Assembly: GCA_017991615.1 (NCBI GenBank)
Contig: JAGOQF010000005.1
Span: 2,785 to 40,025, forward strand
DNA from: Candidatus Shapirobacteria bacterium
GTDB taxonomy: Bacteria; Patescibacteriota; Microgenomatia; UBA12405
Reading direction: 5' to 3'
DNA length: 37,241 nt
Below the pieces are notes generated by a model that saw only the letters and a list, made by a program, of their open reading frames with translations, ran no database searches and was not told the origin of the DNA. The position numbers and the translations under genes are program-made. This document shows, piece by piece, positions 1 to 3,895 of this stretch. The first letter of the stretch is position 1. Each line of letters opens with the position of its first letter.

Positions 1-127
1 AGGTAACGATCATTACAATGTCTTTACCGGCAAAGCCAAAGACAATGACAATACTGAAGCCACTGATGATGATGATGCCACTGTTGAATTTACTGATGTC
101 GCTCCTACCATTGAAGTTACTAAGACT
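1..127 (+). repeat. Copy 1 of a 342-bp-spaced direct repeat
   Basis: These 127 bases are identical to 343-469, so the period is 342 bp (114 codons, in frame). The copy ends where the two sequences diverge after ACTAAGACT. The left limit is the window edge, so the repeat may extend further upstream. It encodes the end of one DUF11-like module (GNDHYNVFTGKAKDNDN, then the Asp-rich string) and the start of the next (TIEVTKT). Confidence 0.95.
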
Positions 128-3100
128 CCAAGTGTTACCGAAGTTCCAGAAACCGGCGCCAACGTTACCTTTACCTTTGTTGTCAAGAATACTTCTACTA
201 AAGAATCGGTTACCATCACCAGTCTCACCGACAGTATTTACGGCACCTTAAATGGTGATGATGATTGTAAAGTTGGCACTGTTCTTGCCGCTGGATCATC
301 CTGTGAATTCTCCATTACCAAATGGATCGAAGGTGATGCCTCAGGTAACGATCATTACAATGTCTTTACCGGCAAAGCCAAAGACAATGACAATACTGAA
401 GCCACTGATGATGATGATGCCACTGTTGAATTTACTGATGTCGCTCCTACCATTGAAGTTACTAAGACTGCTAGCACGTTAATATTGCCAGTTCCTGGTG
501 GTAATGTCACCTTTACTGTTGTCGTAACAAACAAGAGTAAAGAAGCTGTAACCCTCACCAGTCTTACAGACGATATTTATGGAGATCTAAATGGTCAAGG
601 AAACTGCGCCACTGGAGGAACGATTAATCCAAACGGTGGTACATATACTTGTTCATTCTCAGGTTCTGTTACAGGCGATCCAGGATTTTATAAAGATATT
701 GTGACAGCTATTGCCACAGATAATGAAGGATCTACTGACACAAAAACAGATGATGCCGTAGTCGAGCTTAAGGGTGGGAAAATAATCATCGAAAAACAAA
801 CTTTGCCAGACGGTTACACTACTCAATCTTTTGAATTTGATCCCAGTTGGAGTGATGTTAATTTTAACCTAACCGATGGGCAATCAAAGGATAGTGGTTG
901 GTTAGCTCCTGGGAAATATTCCGTTTCAGAAATAGTTCCCACAGGTTGGGATTTAACTAATATTTCTTGTGGTAATGATACTGACAGTACGGTAGATATT
1001 ACCAATAAAACTGCTAATATCAATGTTTCCGCAAATGAAACAGTAAGATGTGTTTTTACTAATACCAAACGAGGAACGGTAGTTATTGAAAAGAATGCGA
1101 TAAATGATAGTGACCAAAGTTTTAGGTTTACAAATAATTTTGGTAATAATAATCCAATCGAGTTCAGCTTGACAGATGATACCACCACAGGTCTACCTAA
1201 CTTTGAAGCTGAGGTATTGCCCGGTCAGTACATAGTAACTGAGGATGAATACGAATCTTGGACATTAACTGAAATTAAATGTGTTGATCCCACCAAAAAT
1301 AGTACTACAAGTTTAGAAAATCGTCAGGCAAGCATTGATGTTGCTCCAGGAGAAACGGTTACCTGTACCTTTACCAACAGACAGAAACCGACCTTAACTG
1401 TAGTTAAAAAAGTGATCAATGATAATGGCGGTACCAAAACTGTTGATGATTTTGGCATCACTTTTAGTGGTGGTCAGTTAACTTTTGACAAAGGTGTAGA
1501 AGATAATAAAACTACCACCTATACCTCTGAAAAACTAACCTTAGACAAGGGAACTTATACCTTATCCGAAAAAGACATCAATGGTTATACCGAAGGGACT
1601 TGGGACTGTGGTACATCCAATGAAAACAAATTGACCACCACAATCAAATTAAATTACAACCAAAATCTTATTTGTACCATTACCAACGATGATCAACCTG
1701 GAACTCTGATTGTTAAAAAAGTTGTAAATAACATCAATGGTGGTGATTTAACCGCCGATGATTTTAGCTTTAGTGTCAACGACGGTACTGCTATTCCTTT
1801 CGAAGCCGACGGTGAAAATAGTCTGACCATTGATGCTGGTATTTATACTGTCACCGAAACTCCGGTTGATGGTTATCAACCAAGTTATAACAACTGTTCC
1901 AACATTACTCTCGCTAATGGTGGCACCGCTACTTGCACTATCACCAATGACGCTATTTTTGGTCAAATTTCAGTCATTAAATTTAATGATGTCAACGGTA
2001 ACGGTCAAATGGACTCAGATGAAGAAACCTTGCCAAATTGGCAAATAAATCTAACTTCTCAAGACTCAAAAATTACCAACGACCAAGGTTCAGCTGTGTT
2101 TAACAAATTAATTCCTCAAACTTATTATCTCAGTGAAACTCTTCAACCTGGTTGGACTCAAACTAATATTTATTGTGATGACAAAACACCATCCGATATA
2201 AGTAATCAAAATAATTATCAAATTGAGCTAGGGTCATCTCAATCACTCCAATGTCATATTGGTAATCGTCTACTTACTCCAGAACTTGACATTGCCAAAA
2301 CCAACAATGTCGGCAGTTCAGTTCTTTCACCTGGCGATTCGGTTACTTATACTATCAAGTTGGAGGTTTCTAAAAATGATATTTCTAATCTAAAAGTTAC
2401 TGACCTTTTGAGCAATGGTTTCAAATATCGCCCTGGTTCTTACAAAGTTATCAAAAACGGCATTGAGGATATTACTTCTCAAATTGCTGAACCTCAATAC
2501 CATTCACCTGGTCTTTGGAATTTAGGTTCTTTTGTTAAAGGTGATAAATTGGATCTAATTTATATTGCTGATATCAATTCCAATCAACAATCTGGTGTCT
2601 ACAAAGATATTGCCTGGGCCGTTGGTAATAATACTTACAATCAAGACGAAACCGTCTTAGCTTCTGCTTTACCGGAAGGTTATCTGGATACTAATTTTGT
2701 CGGCACTCAGGTTCCTATCAACAAAGCTGTTTCTGATTCCGTCTCGGCTGAAGTTGAAAAAGTCCAGACTATTGAAGGTCAGGTATTGGGAGTCTCTACC
2801 GATACTTTGCCTGCCACCGGCGCCGCCACCATTTGGCTTCTAATTAGTAGTCTCTTTGGTCTAACCGGTTTGGCTTTAATTTTTAGTCGTCATACTATGT
2901 TTAAAAATTTATTTTTCAGTCTTATCTTGACTGCTTTCGCCTTTGGTTTTACCGCTTCACCTCTTCAGGCCGCCGATCCAACTCTCTTTATTCGTCTTCA
3001 GGATCCTAAAACCCATGTTAATACTACTAATCTTGATCTTAAGTTTGTTACTTTAGATATTTCTGCCCGCCCGATTACTGTTAAATGTTTCAAAAAAGGC

Positions 3101-3895
3101 CCTACTGAATCAGTTTTTTCTCAATTTGGAGGGGATATTGTCGTTACTGCCGGTGGCAATTCCGACCAATGCAATTTAGCTTCGGTAATTTCTACCCCCG
3201 GTACCTATCAATTCCAAACCAAAGCTTACGCCGGCGCTGATGTTGCTGAGAGTAATACTGTTTTCTTTGATTATCAAAATTCTACTCCCGGCACTCCAGT
3301 AGAATATTCTAAGTCAGTCTTAGATAATCACTGCGACTATATTATTAAGTTTAGAACCGCTAATGATGAAGGTAGAACCGCCAAAGTTGAGATTTATCGT
3401 TCCACCAATCCTGCCTTTGCCGCTGACAACCAATCTCTAGTTCATTCTATCAATGTCGGCTCCGATCAATATCGGGAAGTCAACAATAGTGTCCCAGATT
3501 GTTCCAAAACTTATTATTATGCCATTCGTGCTTTTGATATTTATGGCAATGGTTCTGGTGTTACCGGCGATACTGTAGTTAAAACCGTCGTTTCCGGTGA
3601 TACTACAGTTATCAATACTACCACCACTTCTTCTTCAACTGACACTACTGGCGCTATCAGGGTCAGTGATTCAAATATTCCTCAAGAGGAAGATTTAAAC
3701 AAAAAAGATGATTCTGAACAGACCGAGACTGTTAGTCCTGATGATTCCACTGGTCAAGTTTTGGGTGTTGGCAGTCAGTCAATCAAAAGTTATTTTGCTG
3801 ATCATAAAGTTTTGACCGCAATTATCATTATCGCTTGCCTTGCCCTGATAATTTATGTCATCAAAACTGTCTTCAACAAGTCCAAAAAATCCTAA
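2..3895 (+). CDS. Giant repetitive surface protein with internal LPATG, fused to a second signal-peptide surface protein (5' partial)
   Basis: This frame is open from the left edge, so the gene starts outside the window; about 1297 residues are visible. It begins with two DUF11-like repeats carrying Asp-rich DDDDAT strings. Five SpaA/prealbumin-like modules follow (about nt 773-2270), each ending in a C-x-x-x-N type strand; the fifth looks SdrB-like, with a calcium-loop-like DVNGNGQMDSDEE. Another DUF11 domain (about 2279-2650) comes next. A sortase signal LPATG lies at 2807-2821, followed by a membrane helix and SRH. With no stop, the frame runs on from a Met codon at 2897 into a typical signal peptide, a beta-rich Fn3-like ectodomain with paired cysteines, a Thr/Ser-rich linker and a C-terminal membrane helix with a KSKKS tail. 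A sortase gene overlaps the 3' end. It is probably an adhesin or wall protein. Module names are by eye and the repeats have no assigned ligand. Confidence 0.85.
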   Translation, partial: GNDHYNVFTGKAKDNDNTEATDDDDATVEFTDVAPTIEVTKTPSVTEVPETGANVTFTFVVKNTSTKESVTITSLTDSIYGTLNGDDDCKVGTVLAAGSSCEFSITKWIEGDASGNDHYNVFTGKAKDNDNTEATDDDDATVEFTDVAPTIEVTKTASTLILPVPGGNVTFTVVVTNKSKEAVTLTSLTDDIYGDLNGQGNCATGGTINPNGGTYTCSFSGSVTGDPGFYKDIVTAIATDNEGSTDTKTDDAVVELKGGKIIIEKQTLPDGYTTQSFEFDPSWSDVNFNLTDGQSKDSGWLAPGKYSVSEIVPTGWDLTNISCGNDTDSTVDITNKTANINVSANETVRCVFTNTKRGTVVIEKNAINDSDQSFRFTNNFGNNNPIEFSLTDDTTTGLPNFEAEVLPGQYIVTEDEYESWTLTEIKCVDPTKNSTTSLENRQASIDVAPGETVTCTFTNRQKPTLTVVKKVINDNGGTKTVDDFGITFSGGQLTFDKGVEDNKTTTYTSEKLTLDKGTYTLSEKDINGYTEGTWDCGTSNENKLTTTIKLNYNQNLICTITNDDQPGTLIVKKVVNNINGGDLTADDFSFSVNDGTAIPFEADGENSLTIDAGIYTVTETPVDGYQPSYNNCSNITLANGGTATCTITNDAIFGQISVIKFNDVNGNGQMDSDEETLPNWQINLTSQDSKITNDQGSAVFNKLIPQTYYLSETLQPGWTQTNIYCDDKTPSDISNQNNYQIELGSSQSLQCHIGNRLLTPELDIAKTNNVGSSVLSPGDSVTYTIKLEVSKNDISNLKVTDLLSNGFKYRPGSYKVIKNGIEDITSQIAEPQYHSPGLWNLGSFVKGDKLDLIYIADINSNQQSGVYKDIAWAVGNNTYNQDETVLASALPEGYLDTNFVGTQVPINKAVSDSVSAEVEKVQTIEGQVLGVSTDTLPATGAATIWLLISSLFGLTGLALIFSRHTMFKNLFFSLILTAFAFGFTASPLQAADPTLFIRLQDPKTHVNTTNLDLKFVTLDISARPITVKCFKKGPTESVFSQFGGDIVVTAGGNSDQCNLASVISTPGTYQFQTKAYAGADVAESNTVFFDYQNSTPGTPVEYSKSVLDNHCDYIIKFRTANDEGRTAKVEIYRSTNPAFAADNQSLVHSINVGSDQYREVNNSVPDCSKTYYYAIRAFDIYGNGSGVTGDTVVKTVVSGDTTVINTTTTSSSTDTTGAIRVSDSNIPQEEDLNKKDDSEQTETVSPDDSTGQVLGVGSQSIKSYFADHKVLTAIIIIACLALIIYVIKTVFNKSKKS
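343..469 (+). repeat. Copy 2 of the 342-bp-spaced direct repeat
   Basis: This copy is identical over 127 bases to the left edge of the window. After it the sequence departs from the repeat, and the following DUF11-like module (PVPGGNVTFTVVVTN) is only similar in protein sequence. It therefore marks the right end of the nearly identical part of the array. Confidence 0.95.
2807..2971 (+). other. Junction: LPATG sorting signal, membrane helix, then a complete signal peptide in the same frame
   Basis: LPATG is encoded at 2807-2821. A hydrophobic helix (AATIWLLISSLFGLTG and on) and SRH follow, which is how a sortase substrate normally ends. No stop follows. A Met codon at 2897 starts MFKNLF, a hydrophobic core and an AXA-like site (SPLQA, then ADP) ending at 2971. 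I see no Shine-Dalgarno sequence and no -10 hexamer at the usual 5-7 nt distance before 2897, so a separate promoter there is not supported. Confidence 0.8.

Follow-up and report, generated by a model that had tools for sequence, protein, structure and literature searches.

An internal sortase signal joined in frame to a second exported protein recurs across Patescibacteria and points to a putative surface polyprotein

The studied stretch of DNA (37,241 nt, hereafter the window) comes from a Candidatus Shapirobacteria genome of 0.68 Mb that is 95.25% complete. A stop-free frame on its forward strand (2..3895, stop codon at 3893-3895) encodes an LPATG motif, a hydrophobic helix, a basic link, a signal-peptide-like helix, a second ectodomain, and a third helix, which confirms the uninterrupted fusion read from this DNA in the initial annotation. 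The frame reaches at least 2225 aa once the 2784 bases that precede the window on the contig are added; this added part contains an N-run, and the 5' end runs off the contig. Positions 1-480 of the window hold near-identical tandem repeats with the unit GNDHYNVFTGKAKDNDNTEATDDDDATVEF, and with an N-run upstream the assembled repeat number is unsure. A conserved domain of ectodomain 1 (2123..2800), within which a DUF11-type domain was detected (2288-2629; Pfam PF01345, 1.6e-6), directly precedes the sorting signal. The latter is formed by the LPATG motif (2807..2821, read directly, with the sortase cut predicted between T and G) and hydrophobic helix 1 (2822..2884, recognized by sequence and by a sub-threshold PF00746 match), followed by the short basic link SRHT (2885..2896), predicted to be cytoplasmic from its sequence and from the hairpin charge in relatives. 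Helix 2, MFKNLFFSLILTAFAFGFTASPLQA (2897..2971, with an ATG at 2897), is assigned as an internal signal peptide by alignment with the N-terminal signal peptides of split relatives, and a signal peptidase I cut is predicted after LQA (2971/2972). Ectodomain 2 (2972..3781), starting with ADPTLF, is followed by the C-terminal helix 3 with its basic tail (3782..3892). As the initial annotation had also noted, a sortase gene (P0003, 3855..4466; PF04203, 1.9e-23) follows the fused frame and overlaps its end.

The AlphaFold2 model of the second half of the frame (P0001; 17-row alignment, mean pLDDT 74.1) contains two confident beta-sandwich domains (about 2984-3274 and about 3299-3568), a disordered stalk (3578-3781), and the C-terminal helix (model helices 296-330). 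Foldseek matched this half to tandem FnIII/Ig pairs (best E 3.4e-7), and query TM-scores of the listed matches were low, about 0.2-0.3. No Pfam family was found for the second protein, with only one chance-like match among 17 members. Judging by the model, the second protein may be a binding module; no ligand is indicated, and the role of the two Ig/FnIII-like domains is unproven.

Relatives were collected with P0001, i.e., with the second half of the fused protein alone. Four of the eight genomes of the genus and 7 of the 34 genomes of the family gave matches, all eight of which lie in long open frames, and an alignment-based search with the second half gave hits in 7 of the 43 genomes of the order. 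A scan of named relatives, which are Microgenomates (e.g., Shapiro-, Roizman-, Levy-, Gottesman-, and Collierbacteria), provided 19 loci. With the wider profile (A3), matches were obtained in 68 of 373 genomes of the class (six of them only at E of about 1e-4 to 1e-3) and in 52 of 379 genomes of the phylum; beyond the class, strong matches were confined to two families (f64 and f84). Weak matches of the wider searches (E of about 1e-15 to 1e-3) were left out of the classification. A domain score of at least 90 bits was reached by 129 rows. Once those whose core sequence was contained in a different row had been removed, together with additional copies of the window, 86 distinct loci were left; one more locus (L039), cut at a contig end, was excluded.

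As a result, 85 distinct loci of Patescibacteria were classified, 47 as fused and 38 as split. The initial annotation had left it to related genomes to show either the same fusion or two genes with a stop between them, and both were found. Within the class the fusion occurs in many families, and outside the class in two; all six loci of the window's clade (L004, L021, L022, L023, L024, and L026) are fused. The frequency of fused and overlapping genes among relatives suggests, on comparative grounds, that the two proteins may be built together and then separated.

The split loci constitute a natural control, which makes the processing model discussed below directly testable. In all 38 of them, the ORF immediately upstream terminates with a sorting signal made up of a hydrophobic helix plus a short tail; its LPxTG-like motif can be seen in 37 cases and is masked by N in one. 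The second protein of the split pair has an ordinary signal peptide at its own N-terminus. In the alignment this peptide corresponds to helix 2 of the fused chains, and helix 2 is thus a homologue of a real signal peptide. The two split genes overlap by 8 nt in 22 loci, by 11-17 nt in eight, and by 4 nt in one, whereas the remaining seven abut or start after the stop. These offsets place the downstream start in the +1 frame for 34 of the 38 loci, so that joining the genes requires a frame shift and not just a lost stop. In a separate observation, another LPKTG protein from one of the genomes (L138:904-2291) has a normal stop and a 4-nt overlap with the next exported-looking ORF.

Both predicted cut sites are conserved in the fused proteins. 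By alignment columns, every locus has Ala at position -1 of the predicted signal peptidase site (47/47 fused, 38/38 split). This residue is one of only three well-filled columns that do not vary over the 85 rows of the aligned region (signal peptide plus ectodomain), the others being a Pro and a Ser. The alignment was built by MAFFT, which can favour matching, but within helix 2 only one further position, a lysine (66 of 84 rows), is listed as conserved. The -3 residue in the fused loci is V (24), A (13), T (8), or L (2), the last and rarest type being that of the window. Signal peptidase I substrate features (a basic n-region, a hydrophobic core, and small residues at -3 and -1) are met, with the exception of this Leu in the window. 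Given the stop-free layout in 47 of 85 classified loci and the invariant -1 Ala, the fused arrangement is more than chance, and the architecture is real and conserved.

An LPxTG-like motif was found in 43 of the 47 fused loci, as LPATG (28), LPSTG (4), LPNTG (4), LPAAG (3), LPGTG (2), LPVTG (1), or MPATG (1), and the distance from it to the -1 Ala varies between 50 and 68 aa, with a median of 58. The four loci without the motif (L085, L088, L089, and L099) carry a GAATG-like sequence at the motif position, possibly a variant sorting signal, and have a sortase gene upstream on the same contig. Against curated models, the sorting signal of the window scores 15.2 bits with TIGR01167 (cut-off 15.9) and 18.3 bits with PF00746 (cut-off 20), and a PF00746 profile search of the window's genome did not pick up its motif. 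The C-terminal placement of a sorting signal is absent here, as the chain continues for another 357 aa after the motif before the stop (362 aa when counted from the L of LPATG). Among 14 fused loci inspected by eye, a signal-peptide-like N-terminus is clearest in L025, L032, L036, L123, L133, and L136; other N-terminal starts are uncertain or masked, and the window frame runs off its contig. Three of these loci (L123, L133, and L136) have complete fused frames of only about 733-763 aa, hence a giant first protein is not needed.

The neighborhood of the pair is conserved as well. A sortase ORF is located directly downstream in 38/47 fused and 30/38 split loci; where it is missing, a same-strand sortase was found upstream on the same contig in 8/9 fused and 7/8 split cases. 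By their coordinates, the upstream sortases adjoin the frame in most such fused loci and lie about 1.3 kb away in G056 and 2.2 kb away in G046, and the contigs of the two loci without a sortase on either side (L128 and L094) end nearby. The product of P0003 has a sortase domain with the catalytic Cys (PF04203, 83 bits against a cut-off of 26.6; TCWPPG) and remains below the cut-offs for sortase classes D (57.7/165), C (52.8/160), and E (44.7/160). The window's genome encodes two further sortases and a signal peptidase I (PF10502, 8.7e-47; this family was used instead of PF00717, which is not specific for the enzyme). On the side of the first protein, approximately 220 aa before the sorting signal are homologous in all 85 loci, ending 0-13 aa from the signal, according to a homology search confined to the 85 segments. 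In the window, a GQVLG motif stands shortly before the membrane segment in both halves (2777-2791 and 3752-3766). VLG-type motifs occur at most 40 aa before the sorting signal in 84/85 loci and near helix 3 in 73/85, compared with 13 of 291 stretches taken from the first proteins as controls. No gene for ectodomain 2 was seen away from a sorting-signal protein among the 85 loci. The sortase, its substrate, and the partner define a conserved cassette in bacteria with a poorly understood cell-surface biology.

The tree of the ectodomain 2 core (85 rows, 244 columns) requires eight changes between the fused and split states, ranging from 7 to 9 over 200 bootstrap trees, and well-supported branches force at least four; the direction of change was not inferred. 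A history of separate genes, which the initial annotation had offered as a lost stop codon, may therefore hold, but in view of the +1 start in most split loci the loss of a stop alone would mostly not have joined them. Ten pairs were tried for hairpin dN/dS, one of which was saturated; the nine computable ratios range from 0.04 to 0.68. By this measure, the hairpin is under purifying selection within the joined frame. It is less constrained than ectodomain 2, its ratio being the higher one in six of the eight pairs where both were computable.

We consider it probable, from comparative sequence evidence and in the absence of cleavage data, that the fused frame encodes a bacterial surface polyprotein cut by sortase at LPxT|G and by signal peptidase I at AxA|, with the hairpin discarded. 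Sec would export the first part of the chain, helix 1 would stop the transfer, and helix 2 would restart it as an internal signal peptide. Sortase would then attach the first protein to an unidentified acceptor, and the signal peptidase would free the second as a single-pass membrane protein, leaving the helix 1-helix 2 hairpin behind. The two products would arise in a 1:1 ratio, which split relatives may approximate by overlapping genes. Points that weigh against this model are the four fused loci without an LPxTG-like motif and the three with LPAAG, the weaker constraint on the hairpin, the rare Leu at -3 in the window, and the linker ATGs with an SD-like match in some fused loci. The polyprotein part of the earlier proposal has comparative support, namely both cut sites conserved when fused, purifying selection on the hairpin, and split relatives with the same two proteins and a signal peptide. 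The term "self-splitting", however, is too strong, as the enzymes would be a separate sortase and signal peptidase I and the cleavage is inferred.

Helix 2 could instead remain uncut, in which case sortase alone would release ectodomain 1 from a three-helix membrane protein, and the hairpin and ectodomain 2 would stay in one piece. We regard this as improbable. An uncut hairpin would still have the right topology, its net charge is positive (+2 to +9) in the 43 fused loci whose motif could be located, and cleavage has not been shown; nonetheless, there would be no evident reason to retain an AxA site, the same one as in the split genes, with its -1 Ala and restricted -3 residues.

The proposal in the initial annotation that the second protein is initiated separately at the ATG 2897, which would make the joined frame incidental, has a slim chance. 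This ATG is located where the split genes start, and 13/47 fused loci have an SD-like match of 4 nt or more at a linker ATG, compared with 21/38 split genes, so internal initiation is possible in some fused loci. It cannot be general, since 18/47 fused linkers lack ATG and 6/47 lack ATG, GTG, and TTG altogether. Moreover, no SD-like match precedes the ATG 2897 of the window, and the frame is open over whole clades, with a hairpin that appears to be selectively constrained. A single-base error at the junction or a recently lost stop in this genome is very hard to credit: although the ATGTTTAA of the window matches the ATGNNTAA overlap of split genes and a one-base difference would split the frame (no reads were inspected), two genomes of its wholly fused clade have no linker ATG, the ATGNN-stop pattern expected as a relic of the overlap is not enriched in fused linkers (4/53 linker ATGs against 30/360 other in-frame ATGs), and the recurrence of the same fusion in 47 distinct loci, with two genes in 38, argues against a sequencing slip here and refutes error or stop loss as an explanation for the whole family.

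Under the polyprotein model, the second protein would most likely be a dedicated membrane-bound partner of the first, as inferred from its presence only in this cassette among the loci examined. More speculatively, and with considerable doubt, ectodomain 2 might act in cis while joined and keep the sorting signal close to both membrane and sortase; attachment and release would then become ordered steps of maturation, and a single-base indel might switch between the fused and split states, given the +1 frame of the split start codon. A stronger version, in which the partner itself serves as the sortase acceptor, was considered less likely still, since none of its lysines is invariant over the 85 rows (best 74/85).

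Sortase signals are described as C-terminal, for example in the abstracts of two studies (PMC4617865, PMC4155245). One sortase family occurs in more than half of CPR genomes and is near ubiquitous in Microgenomates, according to the available part of another (PMC6744442), and the available parts of two more mention sortase without such a fusion (PMC7143001, PMC8672522). In titles and abstracts of the literature searched, which mostly does not cover subscription papers, no description was found of a sortase signal that lies internally and runs on into another exported protein. Viral polyproteins processed by host signal peptidase (flaviviruses, bunyavirus Gn/Gc), insofar as partly available sources describe them, are similar to the window in that an internal signal peptide behind a membrane helix separates two ectodomains; they differ in the use of a eukaryotic signal peptidase and in the lack of a transpeptidase step. 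Among bacterial polyproteins, the fbcH cytochrome b/c1 of Bradyrhizobium is separated into two proteins by signal peptidase cleavage at an internal signal peptide; it has no sortase signal and yields respiratory rather than surface proteins. The name of the midcut-by-XrtH family (NF033207) implies a sorting cut in mid-protein, by an exosortase and not a sortase; its sole match to the window protein is weak (16.5 bits against a cut-off of 45) and lies in the repeats, not at the junction. The literature searched for midcut/XrtH and fbcH contained nothing on either system. With the LPXTG sortase substrates of Gram-positive bacteria (PF00746/TIGR01167), the window shares the LPxTG motif, the hydrophobic helix, the basic residues, and the adjacent sortase gene. 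Unlike in those substrates, its sorting signal is internal, with a signal peptide and then a further ectodomain behind it, so that the sortase signal here is a conserved internal junction, with a signal-peptidase-type site a few dozen residues on, kept over many lineages of Patescibacteria.
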